From the NCBI GenBank assembly GCA_002104985.1, contig MCGO01000014.1, positions 248,001-312,000 on the forward strand: 64,000 nt of DNA. Direction: 5' to 3'. The stretch is from Rhizoclosmatium globosum. Its lineage: Eukaryota; Chytridiomycota; Chytridiomycetes; Chytridiales; Chytriomycetaceae. Numbering within the stretch: the first letter of the stretch is position 1; the number at the start of each line of letters is the position of its first letter. Under the pieces are notes generated by a model. It ran no database searches and had not been told where the DNA came from. It worked only from the letters and a program-made list of their open reading frames with translations. This document shows positions 36,746-57,752 of the stretch, piece after piece. Position numbers and translations under genes: made by a program.

Positions 36746-36869
36746 TCATTCAAACATACAATCATCCTCTCAATGTGTTTTTCATTGACATAAAAAGTAA
36801 CCTAAAAACCTTCCAAACCTCTTGTAACAGACCCAATATCATGACCACTCCGAAACTAAACAAAACCAA

Positions 36870-36938
36870 TCCCAGATAGTATAGTGGCTAGTATCCGCCC
36901 CTGTCACGGGCGAGACCGGGGGTTCAATTCCTCTGGAG
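36870..36938 (+). tRNA. tRNA-Asp (GTC), damaged copy
   Basis: It matches the intact array copies through the anticodon loop CTGTCAC, then has one extra G in the T-arm and lacks several bases in the 3' strand (TTCAATTCCTCTGGAG). The T-arm no longer pairs cleanly. It marks the left edge of the tRNA array, 124 bp after the RCC1-like gene. Confidence 0.8.
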
Positions 36939-36999
36939 CGCTTTGATAAATCATATGAAATGTTTATGAAAAATAGGAGCATTTGATCAAAGCAAACAT

Positions 37000-37067
37000 G
37001 CAGTAGTTGTATAGTGGTTATTATGCTGCTTCCAAGCATGCGACCGGGTTCGAATCCGGCTACTGCA
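37000..37067 (+). tRNA. tRNA-Gly (TCC), damaged copy
   Basis: It differs from intact copies only by lost bases inside short runs, for example CC to C in the anticodon stem and CCC to CC on both sides of the T-arm. This pattern favours sequence error over decay. The anticodon TCC is kept. Confidence 0.82.
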
Positions 37068-37145
37068 CGGTCTTTTGAACTTTTGTATGGTGTGTCATTA
37101 TGAGAATGACAGTCAAATCAGAAGGAAATGAGGATTGCGAGTAGT

Positions 37146-37226
37146 CCGATGATAGCTCAGTGGTAGAGCATCTGACTGTAATGTGAACATGATATCAGGA
37201 GGCCCGGATCGACCCGGGTCGTCGGA
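37146..37226 (+). tRNA. tRNA-Tyr (GTA) with intron, damaged copy
   Basis: One T is missing in the D-loop (CAGTGGTAG) and C-runs in the variable/T-arm are shortened. The intron and anticodon GTA remain. Confidence 0.82.
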
Positions 37227-37280
37227 CTTTTTGAAACGATGAAAGTCGGCGGATGCAGGTTGAAGCCATCTGCATCAGAA

Positions 37281-37326
37281 GTCCTGTTGGCGATTGGGAG
37301 CGCAGGTTCGAATCCTGTGCAGGACG
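37281..37326 (+). pseudogene. tRNA-Ser (GCT) with internal deletion
   Basis: The acceptor 5' strand GTCCTGT and the T-arm through AGGACG are present, but about 36 nt holding the D-arm and anticodon are gone. It cannot make a functional tRNA as written. Confidence 0.85.
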
Positions 37327-37521
37327 TGATTTTATTTACATTCTTGATTTCTGGATTGCAGAAGAGAAGGAAAGAGATTTTTCGCCATCCTTTCCTCTAT
37401 TTATGCCAGCTGTTAATGCTTGGCGGTAAAAAATGACACTTCAGAGGATAGGAAGTCTATTTTGTGGTTGTTGCGCAGTATAATGCGAAACTTGGTATGT
37501 TAAGTCTTGCAAGTGTCATCT

Positions 37522-37578
37522 GCTCTATTAGCTCAGTTGGTTAGAGCGTGGTGCTAATAACGCCAAGGTCACAGGTTC
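37522..37578 (+). pseudogene. tRNA-Ile (AAT), 5' part, cut by an insertion in the T-loop
   Basis: Bases are identical to intact copies from GCTCTATTAGCTC through the anticodon loop CTAATAA to ACAGGTTC. The sequence then departs into unrelated DNA (TGGGACAAC). The missing 3' part of the gene lies 8.6 kb away at 46175-46196. Confidence 0.92.
37574..37578. repeat. Left 5-bp direct repeat GGTTC at the element junction
   Basis: GGTTC is the start of the tRNA-Ile B box and T-loop. The same 5 bp recurs at 46175-46179. Identity with the intact gene stops exactly at this pentamer on both sides. Confidence 0.85.
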
Positions 37579-37591
37579 TGGGACAACTAAA

Positions 37592-39374
37592 ATGGGCAGA
37601 AAAAATTTCACCCTCTCAGAAAAAGGCCCCAGAAAACGAATGCGATTGGGCAAGAAACAAACAAAGAAACGGGCTCTGGCCAATCAGACAACGCCGATGG
37701 CTTCTGGAAGGACAACGTGAAGGACAATGAGGATGGCTGGTGAGTAGAAAGTCATCGACGCTCCACCACCGCAAAACTGACCCTTTCACACAGCAAAAAG
37801 CAGTTCGCTCTGGGTACAGCGCAGATGAAGCATCGCTCGGGACATGTCATTGACCTCACCGGATTCGACGACGACGACGGCGATGAAGACGGCGCTGACA
37901 ACGGCCAACGAAGTCCTGCGAAACGACTGCGCACCTGTCAAACCACCACCGGCACCACAACTACCATCGACTTGACAAAGGACGACGACGACGACGACGA
38001 CGAGATTGAGAACAACGGTGCCGAAGTACGTCCAAACCCCAACAGACAAATCCTCCTTCGTTCCTTCCCTGACCTGCTACCTTCACACACGTCCTTTGCA
38101 TTGCTCCCTCCATTCTTTCTTTCTACTCGCAGCGACGAATGCTTACATTCGTCCTCGGGAAACGGATTTGAAGTTGGTGGCGGAGTCAATCCTAGTCAAT
38201 CCTGTTCACTCGCGCTGTTGCCATCTCTCGTCTCCAAGTCTGAACACAGCAGCTGGTATACTAACAATATTTGAAAAAGGCGGCTCGGATCTCAAGTTCG
38301 TGTCCAAGCGGTGTCATATTCATTGACGAAGACGAATGGGAATCGCTGCCGGAACCTCTCAGCGACGAATACTGGAAAGCTGAAGAGACATTCTTTGCCG
38401 AATTAGAAAGGTTTGGACTTGCTTCTTTGATGGGTCTGAGTTGACACAGAATACATAGTTCGGATTCTGATACAGACGTAGGACTTCCCAACAGCTCATC
38501 CTCGTCCAAAAACCCGCCTTCTGTCTTTCCACCAACTCCGTCAAAGCCGTTTTTGTCGTCAAATCTCAAGAAAATTCTCCGAATGAAACGAAAAGCTGGA
38601 CTTCGGGAAATCCTCCTTCAACTTGGGGACTTCTCTGCTGCAGCAAAGATTGTATGTCTGGAACAGAAAGTCGAGGCTGTGGTTTCAAAGTTAGAAGGGT
38701 GTCAGTTTGTTGTCGAGAACGGGGTTGTAGTGTTTGCGTTTGACGTTGGAATCAAGAACCTTGGATGGGTTATTGTAGTCCGAACAGGGGAAGGATCTAT
38801 TGAATTACTTAAGTCGGGATGCTGTGCGATTGTAGCAACGACTGCCGGCATCAATGCGTTGGAATTGGATGAACTGGTTCGTGAAACTATGGAGAGCATT
38901 ATTGGTCAGTTGCCTGACAAGTATGCTGGTATTCCTCGTCGGTTCTTAGTGGAGAGACAGTCGTTGCGTCCACGATACAATCCACGTCTCAAACGGTGTT
39001 TAGGCCCACCCATGGATTCAGTTCGAAATAGTATTGTAGAGCATGTTCTTACTTCAGTTCTCAACGGGTTGTTTCGGAGGTGTGTTGTAAATGTCGATCC
39101 TTGTCATGTCGGGAGCCATTGGAAACGTCTGCACCCTGATTTGATGAAGAACATTGTTGTCCGCAACCGGGATTCCTCTGAAGAATATAAGCAGTATATA
39201 ATCAAGAAAGGGAATGCCATAAAGTTGGTTGAAGAGTTGTCACAATCTCGGGATATTACTGGAATGGGAGACTTGGTAGCAGATGCAAGACGTAATCATC
39301 ACGTCTGTGATGCCGCTATTATTGCTGTGGCCTGGTTGGATTGGGTGGATGCTGCTCTTAGATTCTCACTATAG
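37592..39374 (+). CDS. RuvC/RNase H-fold resolvase-like nuclease (A22/Ydc2 type)
   Basis: The catalytic region is a continuous 273-residue ORF from 38553. VVFAFDVGIKNLGWVIV supplies the first Asp, RRFLVERQSLRPRYNPR the Glu, and NHHVCDAAIIAVAWLDW the last Asp. This Asp-Glu-Asp order and the GIKN and ERQ motifs resemble Holliday-junction resolvases of the mitochondrial Ydc2/CCE1 and poxvirus A22 group. The N-terminal part is very acidic (IDLTGFDDDDGDEDG, TIDLTKDDDDDDDE) and includes VIDL/TIDL motifs that resemble SUMO-interacting sequences. Segments IFIDEDEWESLPEPL and HSSDSDTDVGLPNS are separate exons. The start is unsure; an ATG lies 14 bp inside the element's left end. A role in processing element circles or integration intermediates is inference. 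Confidence 0.72.
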
Positions 39375-39406
39375 AGCATTTATTGAAATAAATGTCAGCT
39401 TTGTAA

Positions 39407-41366
39407 CTAATGGTAATACATAAATCTTGAACGAGGAGGTTTCCCCGTCTTCGTTTTGATGTCAGTTAACACTTTCGACGCTGTAAAACCTGTTCCGCGA
39501 AGGCATCCAAAGAATTCTTCAACGTCGCTTTTGGAGGCAAAAGGAATTGGCAATGTCGCAGTCTTCGCTCCTTTCTTCTTCGCTGCCTTTTTAATGTCCC
39601 TCATCTTGTTGGCACAAAGTTCCTGGAACTTGAAGCGAACCGTTTCGTTTCCAAAAAGGAATTGAACGCCCATAACGAATTCTCCCCCTGTTGCACTGAA
39701 TACCTCCTTGTACTTCTCCATCATAACAAACTTAAGGCAACGGTCGTACGTATCTTGGCTTACTGGTTTCAGGTGACGGCGATTAATCAGCTCCCCAACA
39801 CATGCACCACATGCACCACAAGGATCACAGGTTTCTTCGAAGTACTTCAAAAGTTGCTGCCACCAACATGTTGGCTGTTGAAAGAAGTCTTCCATGAGTG
39901 ACGCAGACTTTGCTCGATTTTCATACAGCTCATTGTAGCGACTACTGATTTCTTCCGCAACTTGAGCTTTATCCTGAGCTGTAAGAGCGATAACAGCGGG
40001 AGTATGGTCGTAATTGGAAAGGTCTTTGTTCTTGAAACCCTTGAAAGTAATCATTCCCTTGTTGGCCAGTTGAACAAGAACCCATTGAATAATAAAAGTA
40101 TCTTTTTCATCACACGGAACCGGCGTCAAAACCTTTGGAACTTGAAGTAGTTTGCTCACAAGATCTGTAAGATCTTTCGTTGGTACTTGATAGGATAAAA
40201 TCAAACTTGAAACAAGACCAACATCGTCGGAACAGTAGAACGTTTGGCAAATGGACTGGACACCATCTCGACCAGCGCGACCAATTTCTTGACTGTAGCG
40301 TTCCGGAGACTGAGCAATTGTTGCGTGGATAACAAAGCGAACATCGGGCTTGTCAATACCCAATCCAAAAGCGACAGTGGCAACAATAACCTTGTACACT
40401 CCGTTCGAAGATTCCTTGAACCATTTCTCTGTATCAAGTCGCTCGGCAGTAGTCATCCCCGCATGGAACGATCTGCATTGAAACTGGTTTCCAGAATACA
40501 AAGTCAAGTATGTGGCCAATTCTTCTGTATCCTTTCGGAAAAGACAGTAAATGACTCCATCGCCAGCAAAAGGACTATTTTTCTTCAAATTCGACACCAC
40601 AGCTTGAAAGATATCCTCCTTCTTCGTCTCATGACTTGTTTGAATACAACGTAAGACCAAATTTCTCCGAACGAGTGGCATTTTGAAAATGAACTCATCC
40701 CGAACGTTAAAAGACAGTTTCAGAATTTCAGTTACTTCAGGAGTGATGGTGGCTGAGAGGCACAACACGCGTTTGGGTGAGAGCAGGGTTGCGATAGTCT
40801 TCATTAACAAGTACTTTGGTCGAAACGCGTTTCCCCACTCTTCAACCAGATCTAATGCTCCAATTAGAACTTCGATATCAAACTGGTGACATCTTACGAG
40901 CTTCGTCAATGACTAACAAATCCAGCGGAACTCCTTGCATGGTCTGAACAAACTCTTGAGAACAGAGCTTCTCCGGAGAAGCAAATAGAATCTTGACTTT
41001 ACTGCTCTTGAAGGCAGAGAGAACGCTCGAAGCTTCCTCTGCAGTATGTTAGATTTTTGAAGTGACAACTAATCACAACCCACCTAACGTTTGATCCGAG
41101 TCCCAAAATCGTGCTTCGATGTTTCTCGACGTCAAATAATTGACTTGATCGTGACTGAGAGCCCGAAGTGGTCCAACGACAACAGTCTTTTGGAGTAGAA
41201 CTGCAGGTAACTGATACAGGAGCGACTTCCCACCTCCAGTTGGCAGCTTCGCGATCACATTTTCGCCATTCATGATTGCTCTGATAATCTCTTCCTGATT
41301 GTGTCTGAAATTGGAATGACCAAAGTTGGCCTTCAATACAGTGACAAGATCGTAAGGTGCCAACAT
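39407..41366 (-). CDS. RecQ-family DNA helicase
   Basis: The start MLAPYDLVTVLKANFGHSNF is followed by RHNQEEIIRAIMNGE (Q-motif-like) and AKLPTGGGKSLLYQLPA (Walker A). Motif II is restored by removing a 45-nt intron (GTAAGATG...GCATTAG), which joins VIDEA and HLVEEWGNAFRPKY to give DEAH. LCLSATITPEV is motif III. GVIYCLFRKDTEELA, CRSFHAGM, VATVAFGLGIDKPDVRFVIH and SQEIGRAGRDG are motifs IV-VI. The C-terminal Cys cluster CDPCGACGACVG matches a RecQ zinc-binding domain. RecQ enzymes unwind 3'-5' and process recombination intermediates. The gene lies between the recombinase and resolvase genes inside the element, so it is probably element cargo and not the host's housekeeping RecQ. Confidence 0.9.
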
Positions 41367-41418
41367 TGATGATTTATTGAAAAGAGAAGAGAGAGAGAAG
41401 AGAAACAAAACAAACCCA

Positions 41419-44400
41419 TCACTTTTGGGGTTTTGCAATTGTAGCTGGCTTTTTGCCTACTTTCGTTTTCTTGGTTGCTGGTGGTTCGACAGTGGTTTGT
41501 GCACTTGCGACAGAGGATGCTGGCTTTGGTAGAATAGGCACAAGTTTCCTGGTATTACGTTTAAAATGAGAATAATCAATTAAAGGATAGCCATACCTTG
41601 GTGTAAACAACGTTGTTCGGTCTTTGTTGAAATTGTCAACAATTTTATCTGCGACTGTGGCTGGATAACCCTCCTTCGGCCGGCCTGGAATTGCACTGAG
41701 TTCATTATCCGCAATAGTTTGTGCCTTCTTTGCTCCAACTGGATCCGCGCCATCTTCAGTCTCGTCTCCAGTCTTCATGAGCTTCCGTTTCAAGGCACGA
41801 TTTGCAACAGGAGTAGTATGCTTTGACGCCGCTGCATCAAACTTTCTCATTGTGTTAACGGCTTCGTACATTTGTGAGGCATTTGGCTTGCCAGTATCCA
41901 AGTATGCACACACAGTGACCAAATCGCGTTGCCCACTTGAGGTTCGTTCGCTTACGAAGGATCCAATTCTCGATAGCTTCGATATCAGTGTGGAATTTGC
42001 ACGAGATTCATTTGCTTTTCTCCAACCTGGGTGAGACGCGTCAAGAGCTTTGAATTTTTGGAAAACGTGGAATACAGCCAGTGAACTTTTGATCATCGAG
42101 AGATCTTTTGAGAGTAAAACGTTGGGAATCGGGGATCCAATAGTTCCAAGAAATGGACCATTGTCATATGCACAGTAAAAGCCAATAGATTCATGAAGCC
42201 CCGTGTTGCTGTTAGCACACCAAGGCGGCAGAGACGGCTTTTCCGATGCGCTTGCTGTGACTGGTGCAGGGTTCACAACAGATGCTGTTGGAGTTGAAAT
42301 CAATTTTGCATTGAAAGGTATGGCACTTTTGGTCGAAAATGTGGACGGCGGTGCGTTTGTTGTGGGTGTTGTTACAGCTGTTGGCGACGATGAAACCGGA
42401 GCTGATGGAAAATTGGACTCCGGAGTAGATGGAATCGCAACAGAAGTAGCAGTGATCTTCGGTTTCATAGGTGTCATTGGAGTCACACGTGTCGAAGACA
42501 GTGAACGTTTTGTAAGTTCAAAAAGCTGCATCCCTTGATAACGAAGCATTTCATTCTGGTCATCAATCTTTTCGTGCAGCTTTTTGATGAGGTCTTGTTG
42601 TTGCGCAATAAGTTGAATTTGCGTTTTGATTCTTCTGCAACACGCTGCAAAATGGCAACTAAAGCAGGATCTGCCTAGTAAGAGTTAGCAATAATTGAGT
42701 GGCATCCAAGAACATTACCTTCAATCGATCATCTGCAATCATATCTCCCGCAGTGTAGCCAGCATCAAGTCTGTCTTCAGCTTCTCCAATTCGCTTCACC
42801 CAGCTCCCCCAACGTTCGTGAGTAAACGGCCAAGATTTCAACGTGTACTTCATTTTCCAATATTTGCGATGGCAAAGAGCAGCCAAGCACTAGAATGTAT
42901 TTTAGAGTGTTTAGTGACAATGTACAACTTACTTGAAGACCCCGGACAATAATAAAGGCCAACGTCGGTTTTGATATTTTGGTTGTAACATTGTCATCTG
43001 GCGATTCCTCTGTGAAGGCAAATTGTAAATCCTCACACGACTGTTCAAATTCAACATCTCGAACATCCAAACGAGGATTCCAATATACTTCGCCTTCCTC
43101 TAATTCTGCTAACTTTAAAAGCACATCAAGACGAGGTATTTGCTGCAAGTATACTCCACGTCCGACTTCCATCTGATACCATCCTATCGACATCAAATCC
43201 TCAACTTGAGCCCCGCGCTGTAATGCACCAAGACCGGCAACTTTGCGACCTTCATGAAGTGCGCGCGATGTTTGTATCCCCGCCTTTTCTTTTCGTGACT
43301 GAACATTTCGGGCAACAGTTTTCGTGTGCATTGCCGCATCAACATTTCGATGAGACGGCGGAAAGAGCTTTCGATCTTTCCAGCTATCAAAGTTTGCAAA
43401 GTCTGGAGCGGTGTCTGCGTTATTCTTCAAGTCCTTTCGCCACACAAATCGATCAAGCAGGTGAATCCCAATTGCTCCAATCGCATCAAGAACACAATCA
43501 CGATTACTGATACAGCCAATAATACGAGGAGGACTTAGTGTAGTTCGAGTGTCGGTCTTCCATGTTGGCAACAAAAATAAGAGACCAAACACGCTCCCAT
43601 GAATTCCGGATTTGTACTCGTGCACGGCTAGATGACTAAGGTTCATGTTCGTGGCTTCGTTTGTTCGATTCATTGTTGCTGTCGCCTGACATTCCATACT
43701 CCACGACCGTATTTGCTGCTTGAGACGGCCTCGTTTATCATCCTCCAACATGTCAATCATATATGGCCGATAGTTTTTCCGCGATTCGCGGAACTCCAGA
43801 AACGTTCCTTTCATTACATCTGGATTTTCTTCATATTTTCGGCGGTTGTAATTTCGAATGGCATCATCCATATGGGCTCCGGCATCGTCGCACTTTGATG
43901 GATTCGGCAAGGGTACAGGTGTTTGAATCAATGCAATAATTACTGATGTAATATTTCCCCACAAGCCTTTCACTTTTGCGAGAGTTGACTAAGATGCGTG
44001 ATTAGCGGTTATGCAAACTAGAGATTGCACTTACAATTTTTTGCCCAAGGAATGGTTGTTTCTTGATTTCCGTGGCAATGCCTTCGTCAAGATCTTGATC
44101 CGCAACAAGATCATCGACTTCGTCTCTAATTTCCGATGGATCTGGAACATCTCGCAATGGCTTATTCTCAATATATTCCAATAAAGCTTGAAGATTCGCC
44201 CAGTTTGGGAACATCCAGTCAAAGCAGTGATCCCCGTTTGCACGCATGGCAAAAATAAAATTCTGGACAAAGAGTTAAAAGAAAAGAGAGGGAGGAAAAT
44301 AAGGTGTGTACCTCAACATGATGCAAGCTGGTTCGATCCGTTTGAAGCGTCTTCTTTCGTTTTGGATCAGTCAGCCTCCCAGTTAAGACTTTGGATCGAG

Positions 44401-44962
44401 TGATGAAGGAGGATATATTGTTTGGTGCAGGATGGTACTCCATTATAAGGAACATCAAGAATTCGAAATACTCAGTCCGAAATATTCCAAGTGCTTCAAA
44501 GTACGACCACATTGCATTAAGTGGATTTTTGATTCTAGAGTCCTCAACGTTGTTCATTGCGCGTAACACTGCAACTTCACGCTGCAGAAGAAAGTCGGGA
44601 TAATCGGGGTGAACAGGTTCCATTCCTTCAAACTCAGCAGTGCGCATGAGAATCCATTTACTCTGCAAATATTTTGGAATTGTGTCTGACGGCGCGGTCG
44701 GCTTTGGTTCAAGAGTAAATTCCGCTCGTGTGGAAGAGACAACAGCTCCGGAGCAATCAGTGTAACAACCAAGAGCAACACTTTTATCTGCTTTCCGAAG
44801 AATACTAAAACAGTTCCCATGCGCCGGCGCAGAACAAAAGTAACATAATATTTGTTTCACCAACGGCACTGGCTTGTTACATACACAGCACTCAACGCTG
44901 TGAGCGGACAGGCTCTCGATGTCACCGTTTGGTGTCACTTGATCTGAATTCGGTTCGTTCAT
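41419..44962 (-). CDS. Crypton/Ndc10-like tyrosine recombinase with N-terminal PHD-like finger
   Basis: The N-terminus (ATG at 44962) has a Cys/His cluster (ECCVCNKPVPLV, ILCYFCSAPAHGNCFS, ALGCYTDC) of PHD-finger spacing. After helical N-terminal regions the recombinase core reads MNRTNEATNMNLSHLA (box-I Arg), then much later SRALHEGRKVAGLGALQRGA (H-x-x-R), DLMSIGWYQMEVGRGVYLQQ (Trp and candidate nucleophile Tyr) and IPRLDVLLKLAEL. This HxxR...GW...YL..IP order is that of Cryptons and the Ndc10 fold. Next come a coiled coil (LIAQQQDLIKKLHEKIDDQ) after one frame break near 42610, and a Pro/Thr-rich linker. A C-terminal domain follows (ATVADKIVDNFNKDRTTLF, YPLIDYSHFKRNTRKL) that I do not recognise; the usual GCR1_C domain is not obvious. 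Confidence 0.82.
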
Positions 44963-45020
44963 ACTTGATTGCAATCCTAAAGTCGTAAGAAATTACTAAG
45001 TAAACAGAAAAAGGAGGGAC

Positions 45021-45761
45021 GAAAATAGCAGAGCTTCTGCCTCCTCGGCAGGCTCATCGGCAGGGGACATTTACCTTGAGTTGTGAATGAAACGACAATG
45101 ACTGGCTTTCGGCTTCGAACGATGTTTTTACTATGAACGCAAAGTTAGGGCAATCAAAAATAGCAGAGCTTCTGCCTCCTCGGCAGGCTCGTCGGCAGAG
45201 GAGTTACCTCCTTGACTGAACTGAAGATTGCGGCGGGTTCGAGCAATGTTTTTACTATGAATAGGGAGTTAAAACGATCAAAAATAGCGCAGCTTCTGCC
45301 TCCTCGGCAGGCTCGTCGGCAGGGGGGGGGGGGGGGGGGGGGGGTGTTTACCTTGAGGTTTGTGGCTGTGGTCGGTGAGTATTTTTGGGCGGCTTCGAGT
45401 GATGTTTTTACTATGAACCGAGAGTTTTAGAGAGCGAAAATAGCGTAGCTTCTGCCTCCTCGGCAGGCTCGTCGGCAGGGGGGAGGTACCTTGTGACGTA
45501 AGGACAGTTTGCGGACGACTTTTGCTACGGCTGCGAGAAGTATTAGAACGTCGATTTATGATGAAAGTCAAAGAATAAAACGAAAATACCAGAGCTTCTG
45601 TCTCCTCGGCAGGCTCGTCGACAGGGTTGTTGTTTGTTGGCTTTTGGGTTGGGCTGCGAGTCTAATAGAACACGTTAGATGAGCGTTTTTAATATGAAGA
45701 TGGGGTTTAGGGCGACGAAAATAGCAGAGCTTCTGCCTCCTCGGCAGGCTCGTCGGCAGGG
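45021..45761. repeat. Six subterminal repeats of about 130 bp with a hairpin core
   Basis: Copies of AAAATAGCAGAGCTTCTGCC followed by TCCTCGGCAGGCTCGTCGG start at 45021, 45156, 45280, 45436, 45582 and 45716. The core CTGCCTCCTCGGCAG can fold as a 5-bp hairpin and GGCAG recurs downstream. A second shared motif, TTTTTACTATGAA, lies 25-40 bp upstream in several copies. All copies face the same way and lie between the recombinase start and the right end of the element. They may be recombinase-binding sites or part of the recombinase promoter. Confidence 0.88.
45322..45344 (+). repeat. Homopolymer run of 23 G
   Basis: The run directly follows the third subterminal repeat. Its length in the consensus is probably unreliable, and it could form a G-quadruplex. 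Confidence 0.9.
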
Positions 45762-46174
45762 GTAGGGGTAGTCGTTCGGTTGTTCGGTGATCGAGTTGGA
45801 GTCCAGACAATCGCCGCCGCACTCACTCAGTTGCCGTCGCCGAAGCCAAGCAGCCCGTCCGCTTAGAGGCACCACGGACACTTCTTGTTTCGCTGGCAAG
45901 TAGAGGGGGTGGCAGTGCAGTGGAAAGCGGTGGTAGTGCGTTGGTGATGCTGCCGTATTCGGACACGGCCGTCGCCGCCGTCTAGAGGACCTGGACCGCC
46001 GCGAGAGAGGGGAGAAGGAGAAGAAAAAGAAGGGGAAGGAAGGAGAAGAAGGGGGGATGCGAAAGGAGGGGGGTTTGCCGCTTACGTTCTGGCCGGGACG
46101 GGTACGCCTTTCTGCCACTCAGAAAAAGTCCTTTCTGGTTTTCTGGATAACACCTAGATGGCCAGAGGTGTAGG

Positions 46175-46196
46175 GGTTCGATCCCTGTATGGAGCA
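46175..46196 (+). pseudogene. tRNA-Ile (AAT), 3' part
   Basis: GGTTCGATCCCTGTATGGAG then CA equals bases 53-74 of the intact tRNA-Ile, and the array spacer follows without a break. It is the partner of 37522-37578. Confidence 0.92.
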
Positions 46197-47143
46197 TAGC
46201 ACATTCAAAACCCTTCCTTTTATTTGTCCAATGTAATAACTGCAGCCAAATCAGATATTATTCTGCTCCAGTGATGATGATTTAACACCAGCAGCTTTTG
46301 TGCCATCATACTGCTATAGTTTGGCTCAGTTCCTGCAATCTTTAAGATCAGAGGTTTGTGTTCAGTCACAATTCCTTGTTCTCATTTGTCATTTTGACAT
46401 CAAAACATGATTGGTTGGAGCTAATTATAAATGCACAAAGGCGCTGTAAGAGAAATAAACATTATTATCAGTTCCTTACAGAGATCAAAACTTGCAAACA
46501 CTTGCACAAAACTTGCAAGCATAATATGCATGTAATTTTCTGTCAATTTCTACATTTTTGTCGTTTTGCGTTGGCATTCTTGCTTTTTGCGCAACAATTA
46601 CAAACAAAAGCCAACCAAAACTTATTTCTGTTTTCGGTTCTTTTCTCCCTCTCCCTCTCGCTTGTCCCTTGTCCCTCGTCCCTCTCTCCTCTTCCCTCTT
46701 CCCTGTCCTCCCTTCTCAATCTTTTTCTCCAATACATTGAATACAATGTTCTGACTCAGCATCTTTCTTGAAATTCTTCTGTTTCAATAGGTTAACATTT
46801 TTAACTTGTTATTGTTTATACAAGATGTATGTAAACCTCCACAAACAATTCACATTACTTGTAATTAAATTAACATACTGTTATGCCACCAAATATTTCT
46901 AAATAAAATAAATACCAACACATATTCAGTGATTCTGTTCTCTATGCTAACAGTTGTCTTATTACCGCATATAACTTTTGTTATTGAACCCCTTAGACAG
47001 AGGTCCATTGAAAGAATTATTCTTTCAGCAACAGGAAAGTCTGTGCATGAGCCAACTTACACTAAGAGAATCTTGATGAAAGAATTAAGTGAATGATGAA
47101 AGAATAAAGTAACGAGTATCACTAAACAAAGGCAGCATCACAA

Positions 47144-47685: not shown

Positions 47686-47882
47686 TGATTTTATTTACAT
47701 TCTTGATTTCTGGATTGCTGAAGAGAAGGAAAGAGATTTTTCGCCATCCTTTCCTCTATTTCTGCCAGCTGTATAATGCTTGGCTGGTAAAAAATGACAC
47801 TTTAGAGGATAGGAAGTCTATTTTGTGGTTGTTGCGCAGTATAATGCGAAACTTGGTATGTTAAGTCTTGCAAGTGTCATCT

Positions 47883-47956
47883 GCTCTATTAGCTCAGTTG
47901 GTTAGAGCGTGGTGCTAATAACGCCAAGGTCACAGGTTCGATCCCTGTATGGAGCA
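47883..47956 (+). tRNA. tRNA-Ile (AAT), unit 1
   Basis: The acceptor GCTCTAT/ATGGAGC has one G-U pair. The loop CTAATAA gives AAT and the T-arm is ACAGG-TTCGATC-CCTGT. Length is 74 nt. This is the intact form of the gene that the element interrupts. Confidence 0.97.
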
Positions 47957-48904
47957 TAGCACATTCAAAACCCTTCCTTTTATTTGTCCAATGTAATAAC
48001 TGCAGCCAAATCAGATATTATTCTGCTCCAGTGATGATGATTTAACACCAGCAGCTTTTGTGCCATCATACTGCTATAGTTTGGCTCAGTTCCTGCAATC
48101 TTTAAGATCAGAGGTTTGTGTTCAGTCACAATTCCTTGTTCTCATTTGTCATTTTGACATCAAAACATGATTGGTTGGAGCTAATTATAAATGCACAAAG
48201 GCGCTGTAAGAGAAATAAACATTATTATCAGTTCCTTACAGAGATCAAAACTTGCAAACACTTGCACAAAACTTGCAAGCATAATATGCATGTAATTTTC
48301 TGTCAATTTCTACATTTTTGTCGTTTTGCGTTGGCATTCTTGCTTTTTGCGCAACAATTACAAACAAAAGCCAACCAAAACTTATTTCTGTTTTCGGTTC
48401 TTTTCTCCCTCTCCCTCTCGCTTGTCCCTTGTCCCTCGTCCCTCTCTCCTCTTCCCTCTTCCCTGTCCTCCCTTCTCAATCTTTTTTCTCCAATACATTG
48501 AATACAATGTTCTGACTCAGCATCTTTCTTGAAATTCTTCTGTTTCAATAGGTTAACATTTTTAACTTGTTATTGTTTATACAAGATGTATGTAAACCTC
48601 CACAAACAATTCACATTACTTGTAATTAAATTAACATACTGTTATGCCACCAAATATTTCTAAATAAAATAAATACCAACACATATTCAGTGATTCTGTT
48701 CTCTATGCTAACAGTTGTCTTATTACCTCATATAACTTTTGTTATTGAACCCCTTAGACAGAGGTCCATTGAAAGAATTATTCTTTCAGCAACAGGAAAG
48801 TCTGTGCATGAGCCAACTTACACTAAGAGAATCTTGATGAAAGAATTAAGTGAATGATGAAAGAATAAAGTAACGAGTATCACTAAACAAAGGCAGCATC
48901 ACAA

Positions 48905-48976
48905 TCCCAGATAGTATAGTGGCTAGTATCCGCCCCTGTCACGGGCGAGACCGGGGTTCAATTCCCCGTCTGGGAG
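48905..48976 (+). tRNA. tRNA-Asp (GTC), unit 2
   Basis: Identical to the unit 1 Asp gene. Confidence 0.97.
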
Positions 48977-49051
48977 CGCTTTTGATAAATCATACTATGA
49001 AATTGTTGTATGAAAAAAGATAGGGACGCCATGTTGATCAAAGCACAACAT

Positions 49052-49123
49052 GCAGTAGTTGTATAGTGGTTATTATGCCTGCCTTCCAAGCATGCGACCC
49101 GGGTTCGAATCCCGGCTACTGCA
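49052..49123 (+). tRNA. tRNA-Gly (TCC), unit 2
   Basis: Identical to the unit 1 Gly gene. Confidence 0.97.
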
Positions 49124-49218
49124 CGGTCTTTTGTACTTTTGTCATGGTTGGTGTGTCAAGTATGATGAACATGACTGTCAAACTCAAGAAAAGAAAAATG
49201 AGGATTCTGCGAGTACGT

Positions 49219-49304
49219 CCGATGATAGCTCAGTTGGTAGAGCATCTGACTGTAATGTGAACATTGATATCAGGAGGCCCCCGGATCGACCCCGGGTCGT
49301 CGGA
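49219..49304 (+). tRNA. tRNA-Tyr (GTA) with intron, unit 2
   Basis: Identical to the unit 1 Tyr gene, including the intron. Confidence 0.95.
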
Positions 49305-49364
49305 CTTTTTTGAAGGGATGGAAAGTCGGCGGATGCAGGGTTTGAAGCCATGTGGCATCAGAAA

Positions 49365-49446
49365 GTCCTGTTGGCGGAGTGGTTAACGCGGCGCCCTGCT
49401 AAGGCGTTTCCCTTTGGGAGCGCAGGTTCGAATCCTGTGCAGGACG
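49365..49446 (+). tRNA. tRNA-Ser (GCT), unit 2
   Basis: Identical to the unit 1 Ser gene. Confidence 0.97.
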
Positions 49447-49643
49447 TGATTTTATTTACATTCTTGATTTCTGGATTGCTGAAGAGAAGGAAAGAGATTT
49501 TTCGCCATCCTTTCCTCTATTTCTGCCAGCTGTATAATGCTTGGCTGGTAAAAAATGACACTTTAGAGGATAGGAAGTCTATTTTGTGGTTGTTGCGCAG
49601 TATAATGCGAAACTTGGTATGTTAAGTCTTGCAAGTGTCATCT

Positions 49644-49717
49644 GCTCTATTAGCTCAGTTGGTTAGAGCGTGGTGCTAATAACGCCAAGGTCACAGGTTC
49701 GATCCCTGTATGGAGCA
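49644..49717 (+). tRNA. tRNA-Ile (AAT), unit 2
   Basis: Identical to the unit 1 Ile gene. Confidence 0.97.
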
Positions 49718-50659
49718 TAGCACATTCAAAACCCTTCCTTTTATTTGTCCAATGTAATAACTGCAGCCAAATCAGATATTATTCTGCTCCAGTGATGATG
49801 ATTTAACACCAGCAGCTTTTGTGCCATCATACTGCTATAGTTTGGCTCAGTTCCTGCAATCTTTAAGATCAGAGGTTTGTGTTCAGTCACAATTCCTTGT
49901 TCTCATTTGTCATTTTGACATCAAAACATGATTGGTTGGAGCTAATTATAAATGCACAAAGGCGCTGTAAGAGAAATAAACATTATTATCAGTTCCTTAC
50001 AGAGATCAAAACTTGCAAACACTTGCACAAAACTTGCAAGCATAATATGCATGTAATTTTCTGTCAATTTCTACATTTTTGTCGTTTTGCGTTGGCATTC
50101 TTGCTTTTTGCGCAACAATTACAAACAAAAGCCAACCAAAACTTATTTCTGTTTTCGGTTCTTTTCTCCCTCTCCCTCTCGCTTGTCCTTGTCCCTCGTC
50201 CCTCTCCTCTTCCCTCTTCCCTGTCCTCCCTTCTCAATCTTTTTTCTCCAATACATTGAATACAATGTTCTGACTCAGCATCTTTCTTGAAATTCTTCTG
50301 TTTCAATAGGTTAACATTTTTAACTTGTTATTGTTTATACAAGATGTATGTAAACCTCCACAAACAATTCACATTACTTGTAATTAAATTAACATACTGT
50401 TATGCCACCAAATATTTCTAAATAAAATAAATACCAACACATATTCAGTGATTCTGTTCTCTATGCTAACAGTTGTCTTATTACCGCATATAACTTTTGT
50501 TATTGAACCCCTTAGACAGAGGTCCATTGAAAGAATTATTCTTTCAGCAACAGGAAAGTCTGTGCATGAGCCAACTTACACTAAGAGAATCTTGATGAAA
50601 GAATTAAGTGATGATGAAAGAATAAGTAACAGTATTACTAAACAAAGGCAGCATCACAA

Positions 50660-50731
50660 TCCCAGATAGTATAGTGGCTAGTATCCGCCCCTGTCACGGG
50701 CGAGACCGGGGTTCAATTCCCCGTCTGGGAG
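50660..50731 (+). tRNA. tRNA-Asp (GTC), unit 3
   Basis: Same sequence as unit 1. The flank just upstream has lost several single bases. Confidence 0.97.
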
Positions 50732-50806
50732 CGCTTTTGATAAATCATACTATGAAATTGTTGTATGAAAAAAGATAGGGACGCCATGTTGATCAAAGCA
50801 CAACAT

Positions 50807-50878
50807 GCAGTAGTTGTATAGTGGTTATTATGCCTGCCTTCCAAGCATGCGACCCGGGTTCGAATCCCGGCTACTGCA
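50807..50878 (+). tRNA. tRNA-Gly (TCC), unit 3
   Basis: Same sequence as unit 1. The 3' flank starts to differ here (GTCTTTTGACTTTTG). Confidence 0.97.
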
Positions 50879-50966
50879 CGGTCTTTTGACTTTTGTCATG
50901 GTGGTGTCAATATGATGAACATGACGTCAAACTCAAGAAAAGAAAATGAGGATTCTGCGAGTACGT

Positions 50967-51051
50967 CCGATGATAGCTCAGTTGGTAGAGCATCTGACTG
51001 TAATGTGAACATGATATCAGGAGGCCCCCGGATCGACCCCGGGTCGTCGGA
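50967..51051 (+). tRNA. tRNA-Tyr (GTA) with shorter intron, unit 3
   Basis: The intron is one base shorter than in other units (GAACATGATATC); the mature sequence is unchanged. Confidence 0.94.
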
Positions 51052-51111
51052 CTTTTTTGAAACGATGGAAAGTCGGCGGATGCAGGGTTTGAAGCCATCT
51101 GGCATCAGAAA

Positions 51112-51193
51112 GTCCTGTTGGCGGAGTGGTTAACGCGGCGCCCTGCTAAGGCGTTTCCCTTTGGGAGCGCAGGTTCGAATCCTGTGCAGGACG
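51112..51193 (+). tRNA. tRNA-Ser (GCT), unit 3
   Basis: Same gene as unit 1, but the flanks are now of the shorter-unit type (AAACGATGG upstream, ATTGCAGAAG downstream). Confidence 0.97.
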
Positions 51194-51389
51194 TGATTTT
51201 ATTTACATTCTTGATTTCTGGATTGCAGAAGAGAAGGAAAGAGATTTTTCGCCATCCTTTCCTCTATTTATGCCAGCTGTTAATGCTTGGCTGGTAAAAA
51301 ATGACACTTCAGAGGATAGGAAGTCTATTTTGTGGTTGTTGCGCAGTATAATGCGAAACTTGGTATGTTAAGTCTTGCAAGTGTCATCT

Positions 51390-51463
51390 GCTCTATTAGC
51401 TCAGTTGGTTAGAGCGTGGTGCTAATAACGCCAAGGTCACAGGTTCGATCCCTGTATGGAGCA
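51390..51463 (+). tRNA. tRNA-Ile (AAT), unit 3
   Basis: Same gene as unit 1. The spacer after it is the shorter type. Confidence 0.97.
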
Positions 51464-52349
51464 TAGCACATTCAAACCCTTCTTTTATCTGTCCAACGTA
51501 ATTACTGCAGCCAAATCAGATATTATTCTGCTCCAGTGAAGATGCTTTTGTGCCATCATATTGCAAAGTTTGGCTCATTTCCTGCAATCTTTAAGATCAG
51601 AGGTTTGTGTTCAGTCACAATTCCTTGCTCTCATTTGTTATTTTGACATCAAAACATGATTGTTGGAGCTAATTATAAATGCACAAAGGCGCTGTAAGAG
51701 AAATAAACATTATTATCAGTTCCTTACAGAGATCAAAACTTGCAAACACTTGCACAAAACTTGCAAGCATAATATGCATGTAATTTTCTGCCAATTTCTA
51801 CATTTTTGTCGTTTTGCGTTGGCATTCTTGCTTTCTGCGCCACAATTACAAACAAAAGCCAACCAGAAAAATTATTTCTGTTTTCGCTTCTTTTCTCCCT
51901 CTCCCTCTCGCTTGTCCCTCCTCCCTCCTCTTCTCAATCTTTTGCTCCAATACAATGTTCTGACTCAACATCTTTCTTGAAATTCTTCTGTTTCAATAGG
52001 TTAACATTTTTAACTTGTTATAGTTTATACAAGATGTATGTAAACCTCCACAAACAATTCACATACTTGTAATTGAATTAACATACTGTTATGCCACCAA
52101 ATATTTCTAAATAAAATAAATACCAACACATATTCAGTGATTCTGTTCTCTAGCTAACAATTGTCTTATTACTGCATATAACTTTTGTTATTGAACCCCT
52201 TAGACAGAGGTCCATTGAAAGAATTATTCTTTCAGCAACAGGAAAGTCTGTGCATGAGCCAACTTACACTAAGAGAATCTTGATGAAAGAATTAAGTGGA
52301 TGATGAAAGAATAAGTAACAAGTATTACTAAACAAAGGCAGCATCACAA

Positions 52350-52421
52350 TCCCAGATAGTATAGTGGCTAGTATCCGCCCCTGTCACGGGCGAGACCGGG
52401 GTTCAATTCCCCGTCTGGGAG
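52350..52421 (+). tRNA. tRNA-Asp (GTC), unit 4
   Basis: Same gene as unit 1; the first Asp gene preceded by a short-type spacer. Confidence 0.97.
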
Positions 52422-52496
52422 CGCTTTTGATAAATCATGCTATGAAATTGTTGTATGAAAAAAGATAGGGACGCCATGTTGATCAAAGCACAACAT

Positions 52497-52568
52497 GCAG
52501 TAGTTGTATAGTGGTTATTATGCCTGCCTTCCAAGCATGCGACCCGGGTTCGAATCCCGGCTACTGCA
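52497..52568 (+). tRNA. tRNA-Gly (TCC), unit 4
   Basis: Same gene as unit 1. Confidence 0.97.
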
Positions 52569-52659
52569 CGGTCTTTTGAACTTTTGTCATGGTGTGTCAA
52601 TTATGATGAACATGACAGTCAAACTCAAGAAAAGGAAAATGAGGATTCTGCGAGTACGT

Positions 52660-52745
52660 CCGATGATAGCTCAGTTGGTAGAGCATCTGACTGTAATGTG
52701 AACACTGATATCAGGAGGCCCCCGGATCGACCCCGGGTCGTCGGA
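52660..52745 (+). tRNA. tRNA-Tyr (GTA) with intron, unit 4
   Basis: The intron reads TGTGAACACTGAT, with C in place of T at one site; this form is shared by units 4-8. Confidence 0.95.
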
Positions 52746-52804
52746 CTTTTTTGAACGATGGAAAGTCGGCGGATGCAGGGTTTGAAGCCATCTGGCATCA
52801 GAAA

Positions 52805-52886
52805 GTCCTGTTGGCGGAGTGGTTAACGCGGCGCCCTGCTAAGGCGTTTCCCTTTGGGAGCGCAGGTTCGAATCCTGTGCAGGACG
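52805..52886 (+). tRNA. tRNA-Ser (GCT), unit 4
   Basis: Same gene as unit 1. Confidence 0.97.
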
Positions 52887-53081
52887 TGATTTTATTTACA
52901 TTCTTGATTTCTGGATTGCAGAAGAGAAGGAAAGAGATTTTTCGCCATCCTTTCCTCTATTTATGCCAGCTGTAATGCTTGGCTGGTAAAAAATGACACT
53001 TCAGAGGATAGGAAGTCTATTTTGTGGTTGTTGCGCAGTATAATGCGAAACTTGGTATGTTAAGTCTTGCAAGTGTCATCT

Positions 53082-53155
53082 GCTCTATTAGCTCAGTTGG
53101 TTAGAGCGTGGTGCTAATAACGCCAAGGTCACAGGTTCGATCCCTGTATGGAGCA
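53082..53155 (+). tRNA. tRNA-Ile (AAT), unit 4
   Basis: Same gene as unit 1. Confidence 0.97.
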
Positions 53156-54046
53156 TAGCACATTCAACACCCTTCTTTTATCTGTCCAACGTAATTACTG
53201 CAGCCAAATCAGATATTATTCTGCTCCAGTGAAGATGCTTTTGTGCCATCATATTGCAAAAGTTTGGCTCATTTCCTGCAATCTTTAAGATCAGAGGTTT
53301 GTGTTCAGTCACAATTCCTTGCTCTCATTTGTTATTTTGACATCAAAACATGATTAGTTGGAGCTAATTATAAATGCACAAAGGCGCTGTAAGAGAAATA
53401 AACATTATTATCAGTTCCTTACAGAGATCAAAACTTGCAAACACTTGCACAAAACTTGCAAGCATAATATGCATGTAATTTTCTGCCAATTTCTACATTT
53501 TTGTCGTTTTGCGTTGGCATTCTTGCTTTCTGCGCCACAATTACAAACAAAAGCCAACCAGAAAAATTATTTCTGTTTTCGCTTCTTTTCTCCCTCTCCC
53601 TCTCGCTTGTCCCTCCTCCCTCCTCTTCTCAATCTTTTGCTCCAATACAATGTTCTGACTCAACATCTTTCTTGAAATTCTTCTGTTTCAATAGGTTAAC
53701 ATTTTTAACTTGTTATAGTTTATACAAGATGTATGTAAACCTCCACAAACAATTCACAATACTTGTAATTGAATTAACATACTGTTATGCCACCAAATAT
53801 TTCTAAATAAAATAAATACCAACACATATTCAGTGATTCTGTTCTCTAGCTAACAATTGTCTTATTACTGCATATAACTTTTGTTATTGAACCCCTTAGA
53901 CAGAGGTCCATTGAAAGAATTATTCTTTCAGCAACAGGAAAGTCTGTGCATGAGCCAACTTACACTAAGAGAATCTTGATGAAAGAATTAAGTGGATGAT
54001 GAAAGAATTAAGTAACAAGTATTACTAAACAAAGGCAGCATCACAA

Positions 54047-54118
54047 TCCCAGATAGTATAGTGGCTAGTATCCGCCCCTGTCACGGGCGAGACCGGGGTT
54101 CAATTCCCCGTCTGGGAG
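54047..54118 (+). tRNA. tRNA-Asp (GTC), unit 5
   Basis: First gene of the run of identical 1698-bp units. Confidence 0.97.
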
Positions 54119-54193
54119 CGCTTTTGATAAATCATGCTATGAAATTGTTGTATGAAAAAAGATAGGGACGCCATGTTGATCAAAGCACAACAT

Positions 54194-54265
54194 GCAGTAG
54201 TTGTATAGTGGTTATTATGCCTGCCTTCCAAGCATGCGACCCGGGTTCGAATCCCGGCTACTGCA
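54194..54265 (+). tRNA. tRNA-Gly (TCC), unit 5
   Basis: Same gene as unit 4. Confidence 0.97.
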
Positions 54266-54356
54266 CGGTCTTTTGAACTTTTGTCATGGTGTGTCAATTA
54301 TGATGAACATGACAGTCAAACTCAAGAAAAGGAAAATGAGGATTCTGCGAGTACGT

Positions 54357-54442
54357 CCGATGATAGCTCAGTTGGTAGAGCATCTGACTGTAATGTGAAC
54401 ACTGATATCAGGAGGCCCCCGGATCGACCCCGGGTCGTCGGA
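54357..54442 (+). tRNA. tRNA-Tyr (GTA) with intron, unit 5
   Basis: Same gene and intron as unit 4. Confidence 0.95.
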
Positions 54443-54502
54443 CTTTTTTGAAACGATGGAAAGTCGGCGGATGCAGGGTTTGAAGCCATCTGGCATCAGA
54501 AA

Positions 54503-54584
54503 GTCCTGTTGGCGGAGTGGTTAACGCGGCGCCCTGCTAAGGCGTTTCCCTTTGGGAGCGCAGGTTCGAATCCTGTGCAGGACG
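54503..54584 (+). tRNA. tRNA-Ser (GCT), unit 5
   Basis: Same gene as unit 4. Confidence 0.97.
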
Positions 54585-54779
54585 TGATTTTATTTACATT
54601 CTTGATTTCTGGATTGCAGAAGAGAAGGAAAGAGATTTTTCGCCATCCTTTCCTCTATTTATGCCAGCTGTAATGCTTGGCTGGTAAAAAATGACACTTC
54701 AGAGGATAGGAAGTCTATTTTGTGGTTGTTGCGCAGTATAATGCGAAACTTGGTATGTTAAGTCTTGCAAGTGTCATCT

Positions 54780-54853
54780 GCTCTATTAGCTCAGTTGGTT
54801 AGAGCGTGGTGCTAATAACGCCAAGGTCACAGGTTCGATCCCTGTATGGAGCA
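54780..54853 (+). tRNA. tRNA-Ile (AAT), unit 5
   Basis: Same gene as unit 4. Confidence 0.97.
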
Positions 54854-55744
54854 TAGCACATTCAACACCCTTCTTTTATCTGTCCAACGTAATTACTGCA
54901 GCCAAATCAGATATTATTCTGCTCCAGTGAAGATGCTTTTGTGCCATCATATTGCAAAAGTTTGGCTCATTTCCTGCAATCTTTAAGATCAGAGGTTTGT
55001 GTTCAGTCACAATTCCTTGCTCTCATTTGTTATTTTGACATCAAAACATGATTAGTTGGAGCTAATTATAAATGCACAAAGGCGCTGTAAGAGAAATAAA
55101 CATTATTATCAGTTCCTTACAGAGATCAAAACTTGCAAACACTTGCACAAAACTTGCAAGCATAATATGCATGTAATTTTCTGCCAATTTCTACATTTTT
55201 GTCGTTTTGCGTTGGCATTCTTGCTTTCTGCGCCACAATTACAAACAAAAGCCAACCAGAAAAATTATTTCTGTTTTCGCTTCTTTTCTCCCTCTCCCTC
55301 TCGCTTGTCCCTCCTCCCTCCTCTTCTCAATCTTTTGCTCCAATACAATGTTCTGACTCAACATCTTTCTTGAAATTCTTCTGTTTCAATAGGTTAACAT
55401 TTTTAACTTGTTATAGTTTATACAAGATGTATGTAAACCTCCACAAACAATTCACAATACTTGTAATTGAATTAACATACTGTTATGCCACCAAATATTT
55501 CTAAATAAAATAAATACCAACACATATTCAGTGATTCTGTTCTCTAGCTAACAATTGTCTTATTACTGCATATAACTTTTGTTATTGAACCCCTTAGACA
55601 GAGGTCCATTGAAAGAATTATTCTTTCAGCAACAGGAAAGTCTGTGCATGAGCCAACTTACACTAAGAGAATCTTGATGAAAGAATTAAGTGGATGATGA
55701 AAGAATTAAGTAACAAGTATTACTAAACAAAGGCAGCATCACAA

Positions 55745-55816
55745 TCCCAGATAGTATAGTGGCTAGTATCCGCCCCTGTCACGGGCGAGACCGGGGTTCA
55801 ATTCCCCGTCTGGGAG
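55745..55816 (+). tRNA. tRNA-Asp (GTC), unit 6
   Basis: Exactly 1698 bp after the unit 5 gene. Confidence 0.97.
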
Positions 55817-55891
55817 CGCTTTTGATAAATCATGCTATGAAATTGTTGTATGAAAAAAGATAGGGACGCCATGTTGATCAAAGCACAACAT

Positions 55892-55963
55892 GCAGTAGTT
55901 GTATAGTGGTTATTATGCCTGCCTTCCAAGCATGCGACCCGGGTTCGAATCCCGGCTACTGCA
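55892..55963 (+). tRNA. tRNA-Gly (TCC), unit 6
   Basis: Same gene as unit 5. Confidence 0.97.
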
Positions 55964-56054
55964 CGGTCTTTTGAACTTTTGTCATGGTGTGTCAATTATG
56001 ATGAACATGACAGTCAAACTCAAGAAAAGGAAAATGAGGATTCTGCGAGTACGT

Positions 56055-56140
56055 CCGATGATAGCTCAGTTGGTAGAGCATCTGACTGTAATGTGAACAC
56101 TGATATCAGGAGGCCCCCGGATCGACCCCGGGTCGTCGGA
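56055..56140 (+). tRNA. tRNA-Tyr (GTA) with intron, unit 6
   Basis: Same gene and intron as unit 5. Confidence 0.95.
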
Positions 56141-56200
56141 CTTTTTTGAAACGATGGAAAGTCGGCGGATGCAGGGTTTGAAGCCATCTGGCATCAGAAA

Positions 56201-56282
56201 GTCCTGTTGGCGGAGTGGTTAACGCGGCGCCCTGCTAAGGCGTTTCCCTTTGGGAGCGCAGGTTCGAATCCTGTGCAGGACG
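56201..56282 (+). tRNA. tRNA-Ser (GCT), unit 6
   Basis: Same gene as unit 5. Confidence 0.97.
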
Positions 56283-56477
56283 TGATTTTATTTACATTCT
56301 TGATTTCTGGATTGCAGAAGAGAAGGAAAGAGATTTTTCGCCATCCTTTCCTCTATTTATGCCAGCTGTAATGCTTGGCTGGTAAAAAATGACACTTCAG
56401 AGGATAGGAAGTCTATTTTGTGGTTGTTGCGCAGTATAATGCGAAACTTGGTATGTTAAGTCTTGCAAGTGTCATCT

Positions 56478-56551
56478 GCTCTATTAGCTCAGTTGGTTAG
56501 AGCGTGGTGCTAATAACGCCAAGGTCACAGGTTCGATCCCTGTATGGAGCA
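56478..56551 (+). tRNA. tRNA-Ile (AAT), unit 6
   Basis: Same gene as unit 5. Confidence 0.97.
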
Positions 56552-57442
56552 TAGCACATTCAACACCCTTCTTTTATCTGTCCAACGTAATTACTGCAGC
56601 CAAATCAGATATTATTCTGCTCCAGTGAAGATGCTTTTGTGCCATCATATTGCAAAAGTTTGGCTCATTTCCTGCAATCTTTAAGATCAGAGGTTTGTGT
56701 TCAGTCACAATTCCTTGCTCTCATTTGTTATTTTGACATCAAAACATGATTAGTTGGAGCTAATTATAAATGCACAAAGGCGCTGTAAGAGAAATAAACA
56801 TTATTATCAGTTCCTTACAGAGATCAAAACTTGCAAACACTTGCACAAAACTTGCAAGCATAATATGCATGTAATTTTCTGCCAATTTCTACATTTTTGT
56901 CGTTTTGCGTTGGCATTCTTGCTTTCTGCGCCACAATTACAAACAAAAGCCAACCAGAAAAATTATTTCTGTTTTCGCTTCTTTTCTCCCTCTCCCTCTC
57001 GCTTGTCCCTCCTCCCTCCTCTTCTCAATCTTTTGCTCCAATACAATGTTCTGACTCAACATCTTTCTTGAAATTCTTCTGTTTCAATAGGTTAACATTT
57101 TTAACTTGTTATAGTTTATACAAGATGTATGTAAACCTCCACAAACAATTCACAATACTTGTAATTGAATTAACATACTGTTATGCCACCAAATATTTCT
57201 AAATAAAATAAATACCAACACATATTCAGTGATTCTGTTCTCTAGCTAACAATTGTCTTATTACTGCATATAACTTTTGTTATTGAACCCCTTAGACAGA
57301 GGTCCATTGAAAGAATTATTCTTTCAGCAACAGGAAAGTCTGTGCATGAGCCAACTTACACTAAGAGAATCTTGATGAAAGAATTAAGTGGATGATGAAA
57401 GAATTAAGTAACAAGTATTACTAAACAAAGGCAGCATCACAA

Positions 57443-57514
57443 TCCCAGATAGTATAGTGGCTAGTATCCGCCCCTGTCACGGGCGAGACCGGGGTTCAAT
57501 TCCCCGTCTGGGAG
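57443..57514 (+). tRNA. tRNA-Asp (GTC), unit 7
   Basis: Exactly 1698 bp after the unit 6 gene. Confidence 0.97.
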
Positions 57515-57589
57515 CGCTTTTGATAAATCATGCTATGAAATTGTTGTATGAAAAAAGATAGGGACGCCATGTTGATCAAAGCACAACAT

Positions 57590-57661
57590 GCAGTAGTTGT
57601 ATAGTGGTTATTATGCCTGCCTTCCAAGCATGCGACCCGGGTTCGAATCCCGGCTACTGCA
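57590..57661 (+). tRNA. tRNA-Gly (TCC), unit 7
   Basis: Same gene as unit 6. Confidence 0.97.
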
Positions 57662-57752
57662 CGGTCTTTTGAACTTTTGTCATGGTGTGTCAATTATGAT
57701 GAACATGACAGTCAAACTCAAGAAAAGGAAAATGAGGATTCTGCGAGTACGT

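Follow-up and report, generated by a model that had tools for sequence, protein, structure and literature searches.

What separates the two halves of an isoleucine transfer RNA (tRNA-Ile) gene by 8.6 kb in the genome of the chytrid Rhizoclosmatium globosum? The locus belongs to a stretch of 64,000 nucleotides (hereafter the window), which corresponds to C46:248001-312000 in the 56.9-Mb assembly of 420 contigs that was used for all genome-wide searches; C-numbers such as C46, C93, C330 and C268 are contig labels of this assembly, and the C46 copy is the element of the window. As judged from sequence comparison, the insert is very probably a Crypton-like integrative element that uses the B boxes of tRNA genes as its chromosomal attachment site (attB).

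Insertions in tRNA T arms

The tRNA array of the window is made of repeat units of about 1.7 kb, in which ARAGORN calls Asp, Gly, Ser and Ile genes; a fifth tRNA per unit, probably a Tyr gene with an intron, was seen by Rfam only. Eight intact tRNA-Ile(AAT) genes were called at 47882-59873 and the uncut junction sequence is present in all of them, which bears out the proposal of the first-pass annotation that they represent the empty site. No tRNA-Ile was called by ARAGORN at 37.5 or 46.2 kb, where the two halves of the interrupted gene lie. The 5′ half (37521..37578, plus strand) ends with ...CACAGGTTC at 37578, its last five bases being GGTTC (37574-37578), and is followed by TGGGACAACT; the last 79 bases before this junction are 100% identical to the eight intact units. 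At the right junction the element ends with ...GAGGTGTAGG (...GTAGG) and the tRNA 3′ part GGTTCGATCCCTGTATGGAGCA begins at 46175, GGTTC and the 3′ half together occupying 46175..46197 (plus strand). The first-pass annotation had described a tRNA-Ile gene split over 8.6 kb with GGTTC at both junctions, and both the arrangement and its coordinates proved correct: the cut lies in the T arm, and the insert (37579..46179) measures 8601 bp when one GGTTC is counted. The same ends are found in the copies on C93 and C330.

When the left end was compared with the whole genome, 12 matches were found, three of them entering the element (C46, C93 and C330), eight corresponding to the intact tRNA-Ile genes and one being a half-match at C359. 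With the right end, 11 matches were obtained (C46, C93, C330 and the eight intact genes). On C93, the element is bordered at its left by a tRNA-Asn 5′ half and at its right by GGTTCGATCCCAGTATCGAGCG, and the two flanks, when joined, yield an intact tRNA-Asn(GTT). An uncut counterpart of this site is carried by C364 and C123, with 95.6 and 94.3% identity over 2 kb, respectively. The C330 copy shares its left flanking place with C93, and its right flank, GGTTCGATCCCCACCTTGGGTG, is the 3′ half of a tRNA-Arg(TCT) gene. A 22-mer of this tRNA-Arg, taken from the C330 right end, occurs 14 times in the genome, 13 of them outside C330; over the next 16 bases C359 agrees with C330 at 15/16 positions and the other twelve sites at 5-8/16, and C359 holds that tRNA-Arg gene uncut. 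Copies outside the window were thus checked for locations away from tRNA genes, with the result that the C93 copy lies in tRNA-Asn and the right end of C330 in tRNA-Arg, GGTTC being present. Since both ends of the element are found again, at an identical tRNA position, in further tRNA genes of this genome, the split seen in the window goes beyond chance.

Aligned lengths among the three copies are 8.4-8.6 kb. Over 8443 aligned bases, 22 substitutions separate C46 from C93, and C330 differs from each of them by 11, so the spread of the element is recent. The C93, C364 and C123 segments are 4-6% apart; the element therefore spread after their separation. These three related segments have three tRNA-Asn sites each, with similar spacing, and only the middle site of C93 contains the element; they may be haplotypes or duplications. 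The half-match at C359 (C359:16118-16165, L021) is a 48-base tRNA-Ile 5′ half after which the sequence diverges; it lies at a distance of about 2.3 kb from the tRNA-Arg gene that is uncut there, and may be an intron-bearing or broken tRNA.

A second lineage is represented on C268, the weakest recombinase match in the genome, where a recombinase gene and a putative nuclease gene are found. The recombinase-promoter end of this element adjoins GGTTCAATTCCCCGTGAGGCCCC, a sequence with one other genomic site, inside an intact tRNA-Pro(TGG) gene. When the genome was searched for the tRNA-Pro 5′ half, 45 sites were found (with at most two mismatches), one of them on C268 about 7 kb away and in the expected orientation. 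The junctions read TCCGGG/GGTCTACTG and TTTCTG/GGTTCAATT, and the uncut gene TCCGGGTTCAATT; the C268 element hence cuts tRNA-Pro in the T arm, in the same orientation as the window lineage. At all eight junctions examined on C46, C93, C330 and C268, of which C93 and C330 share the left one as a single place, a tRNA half adjoins the element, and the orientation never changes: the nuclease-gene end faces the 5′ half, and the recombinase-promoter end faces the 3′ half. The right junction keeps the B box whole, and the left one keeps the A box with the B box broken. No tRNA was called at any junction examined and the target gene is therefore not restored.

The recombinase, its companion proteins and the element ends

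The tyrosine recombinase gene (41419..44962, minus strand) was modelled with GT-AG introns, in agreement with protein P0001 of Rhizoclosmatium JEL0117; its exons are 44962-44312, 44262-44035, 43988-42933, 42889-42719 and a last one from 42674. The protein has a finger-like N terminus, and the catalytic region lies in exon 43988-42933. P0001, which is 99% identical over 92%, is the sole recombinase homologue obtained in protein searches. Near the C terminus the window copy has a frame change that leaves 63 codons in the last exon; the C93 copy is open over 418 codons. The C268 recombinase matches NDC10_II (PF16787; 4.1e-7, 29.8 bits, cut-off 26.3) and is 24.7% identical to the window protein over 316 residues (E 6e-14; the C268 model is short of one exon). 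R401, K437, H538, R541, W563 and Y573 do not vary among the three recombinases that were aligned, and they follow one another as the catalytic residues of a tyrosine recombinase should. The recombinase is thus of the NDC10_II type, the C268 protein by scoring above the Pfam cut-off and the window protein through its homology and invariant R/K/HxxR/W/Y residues, which upholds the Crypton/Ndc10 assignment of the first-pass annotation. Sequence searches of the PDB with the recombinase gave three unrelated chains at E >1 in one search and none in the other. A 584-codon open frame at C408:37314-37682 (L070), with 21.3 bits for NDC10_II (cut-off 26.3), perhaps represents another recombinase family.

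Next to the left end lies a probable RuvC/Ydc2-like nuclease gene with introns (37592..39374, plus strand); R. globosum protein P0003 starts at its ATG at 37592. The Pfam family Ydc2 matches below its cut-off (11.8 versus 23 bits, E 0.19), no Pfam family was found for full-length P0003, and a profile of the nuclease, when compared with the PDB, gave three RuvC chains at insignificant E values (1.7-2.5). Protein searches returned three homologues, all from Rhizoclosmatium. The C268 counterpart aligns with it at 26% identity, and conserved acidic positions are present. On these grounds the third protein is probably, and not provenly, RuvC-like in both lineages. The window and C268 nucleases carry N-terminal acidic I-D-L-T or I-I-D motifs, which resemble SUMO-interaction motifs.

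Between these two genes, a RecQ-type helicase is encoded on the minus strand (39407..41366; exons 41366-41084, 41038-40898 and 40851-39407, from a GT-AG splice model of this sequence alone), with matches to DEAD (6.1e-24) and Helicase_C (2.7e-21). It was not found by tblastn in the C268 stretch and belongs to the window lineage only. The insert had been labelled as cargo-bearing; this label is questionable, since the RecQ helicase and the RuvC-like protein have the appearance of proteins that serve the element itself, probably in recombination or replication. No relatives of the recombinase or of the nuclease were found in viral contigs, and a viral origin is therefore unsupported.

Each end of the element contains a copy of a subterminal repeat (family D7), CTCAGAAAAAG at 37606..37628 and an 83% copy in the same orientation at 46109..46131 (both plus strand), a candidate recombinase-binding site. 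Beside the right end there is a 6-bp inverted repeat, ACACCT...AGGTGT (46150..46171, plus strand); no terminal inverted repeat is present among the repeat pairs listed for the window. By eye, CTCTCAGAAAAA was recognized near the left end in both lineages. Near the right end, where the upstream side of the recombinase gene lies, a 54-nt repeat (AAAATAGC..AGCTTCT; 45017..45766, plus strand) occurs six times in C46, five in C93, six in C330 and once, as a short counterpart, in C268. The right end was also considered as a mimic of the tRNA variable loop (AGGT-N5-GGTTC); compared with random 16-mers of the element, P was 0.058 and 0.031, as the best of four tRNAs, and this similarity is not relied on.

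A segment of 34 nt that contains a perfect 8-bp hairpin (38126..38159, plus strand) is identical in the C268 element (C268:67692-67725). Its inner 21-mer, CGACGAATGCTTACATTCGTC, has 20 exact occurrences in the genome and 27 with at most two mismatches (0 in the backwards control), and the segment is not specific to these elements; at the three other hairpin loci read (L067, L068 and L069), no significant match to element proteins was obtained.

Target choice and proposed integration

The element has constant ends, lies in one orientation only, shares a short core with its targets and encodes a tyrosine recombinase, all of which leads us to favour recombination between two attachment sites. The recombinase would join a circular form of the element, whose attachment site (attP) has GGTTC as its core, with the B box of a T arm, which in the window lineage would be attB with the sequence GGTTCGATCCC. 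The circle would carry the junction ...GAGGTGTAGG-GGTTC-TGGGACAACT... (GTAGG-GGTTC-TGGGAC), and such recombination would impose a single landing orientation. Both the catalysis and the roles of the companion proteins are deduced here. The first-pass annotation had the recombinase target the conserved GGTTC of B boxes. Targeting of the B box stands for tRNA-Ile, tRNA-Asn and, at one junction, tRNA-Arg, and extends to a distant relative in tRNA-Pro; the restriction to GGTTC does not, as the targets of the window lineage (Ile, Asn and Arg) equal the longer GGTTCGATCCC in three of three cases. This motif has 60 genomic sites (1 in the backwards control), compared with 926 for GGTTCRANYCC (410 in the backwards control).

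The tRNA gene would be cut and not restored, at a cost that is presumably tolerated thanks to the many copies in each target family: there are eight intact tRNA-Ile genes in the window, 13 other tRNA-Arg sites and 45 tRNA-Pro sites, and a query ending in the tRNA-Asn 5′ half has 40 genomic matches. That the insertion is harmless to the host, as had been suggested, is plausible.

Several observations weigh against this reading. With respect to the recombinase, Pfam gives no recombinase family for the window protein, AlphaFold modelled the catalytic exon with a mean predicted local distance difference test score (pLDDT) of 33.6, and the genome-wide PF16787 search, which proceeds exon by exon on candidates, returned only C408, below the cut-off, and none of the recombinase genes described here. 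With respect to the nuclease, the mean pLDDT is 38.2, and tblastn at 1e-3 with the protein of the window lineage misses the C268 counterpart. Truncated recombinase relatives on C312, C5 and C35, 44-47% identical to the recombinase over part of the protein, are without a B box in the stretches read; they are borne by more than 13 kb of near-identical duplicated sequence (C312:316001-336000, C5:133001-146450 and C35:157001-177000; L037-L042). The exact common core of the C268 junctions is only GGG, and the two flanks of C330 derive from two places, a tRNA-Asn at the left and a tRNA-Arg at the right. Finally, the array unit to the left of the insert (36866-37578), when compared with the next unit, shows 24 deletions, no insertions and 45 substitutions (709 versus 796 bp), many of the differences falling in single-base runs, and looks like poor consensus or decay.

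The small core of C268 bears on the alternative that survives best, namely that an RNA polymerase III factor occupying the B box (e.g., TFIIIC) recruits the recombinase to the gene, the DNA core mattering little. Retrotransposons located near tRNA genes use RNA polymerase III factors (PMC5006619), and the presence in T arms of two lineages with diverged recombinases fits such tethering. We regard it as unlikely as the principal explanation, considering that the window lineage has exact GGTTC junctions, one orientation and GGTTCGATCCC in all three targets; these features favour a recognition of the B box that would involve at least some reading of the base sequence. Tethering has the targeting of tRNA genes in common with attP x attB recombination and differs in mechanism, and both may be partly true.

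The mixed flanks of C330 could in turn suggest that repeated tRNA sequences led to false joins between contigs. Relative to C46, the short contig C330 shows 28 gaps, 27 of them of a single base, and the poor left array unit of the window points in the same direction. As a general explanation such an artefact is very improbable, and it was rejected for C46, C93 and C268, since each of them holds both halves of one tRNA gene joined at the same position and empty sites exist. It was retained for the flanks of C330 (L035), where their origin from two places makes it probable that two insertions were fused by the assembly; a rearrangement between two copies would be the alternative. A DDE transposon of the Dada type, with a short target-site duplication, can practically be dismissed: elements of this kind do insert inside tRNA and small nuclear RNA genes, as reported in PMC8869645, but no DDE transposase family was found in the open reading frames of the element that were scanned (not every short one was covered), all junctions have one orientation, and it is the recombinase that is conserved in both lineages.

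Relation to known elements

Attachment-site recombination at B boxes leaves the element closest to Cryptons, which PMC3212892 describes as eukaryotic DNA elements that encode a tyrosine recombinase, lack long terminal repeats, carry 4-6-bp direct repeats at their ends and have a proposed circular form; a text count of its main text gives no mention of tRNA. End repeats of this length without terminal inverted repeats were found here in C46, C93 and C330 (GGTTC), C268 having only GGG. Unlike CryptonF, the element targets tRNA genes and has extra RuvC-like and RecQ genes; as no GCR1_C match was obtained in P0001 or the window protein, it was not filed as CryptonF. The first-pass annotation also drew a parallel with bacterial elements that target tRNA genes. 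Prokaryotic islands in tRNA genes (PMC4383910) share with it a tyrosine recombinase, a tRNA gene as attB, a short core and a fixed orientation, and they restore their target. The parallel holds for the tRNA gene used as attB with a short core and fails for its repair, no restored tRNA being found at the junctions; moreover, the host is eukaryotic and the recombinase of the NDC10 type. The element would be a Crypton-like variant that works as a prokaryotic tRNA island without gene repair.

Other systems show partial likeness. Dada elements of fish insert inside multicopy tRNA genes as well, but with a DDE transposase and 6-7-bp duplications (PMC8869645). Nimaviruses and phaeoviruses integrate site-specifically in eukaryotes by means of tyrosine recombinases, and such crustacean and brown-algal viruses target telomere repeats, 28S ribosomal DNA or a dinucleotide (PMC10871703 and PMC13236599). 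Of the sites of the Polinton-like viruses of cryptophytes, some of which have tyrosine recombinases, none is reported to have a tRNA gene within 1 kb (PMC12220804). Starships are fungal elements moved by a tyrosine recombinase too, but far larger and from Pezizomycotina. The family of their captain is DUF3435, and no match to it was found in the Pfam scans of P0001 and of the window and C268 recombinases.

We would tentatively entertain that these elements form a separate eukaryotic superfamily of at least two lineages with the B box as attB, a core consisting of a finger-bearing NDC10-type recombinase and an own RuvC-like nuclease with SUMO-interaction-like motifs, and a whole B box at the recombinase-promoter end that could bind TFIIIC and insulate or drive the element. 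Among the open-licence literature matches listed, no title or abstract reports that a Crypton, or any other eukaryotic element with a tyrosine recombinase, lies within tRNA genes. In bacteria and archaea, the recombinases of genomic islands have long had tRNA genes as their targets; the eukaryotic elements with this target preference that are known to us employ other enzymes. That a eukaryotic tyrosine-recombinase element has the same habit suggests that the two have converged on the part of tRNA genes that is conserved best. It may also provide a natural integrase for a short sequence found in many tRNA genes, and the question of why tRNA genes are favoured landing sites becomes testable in a fungus.

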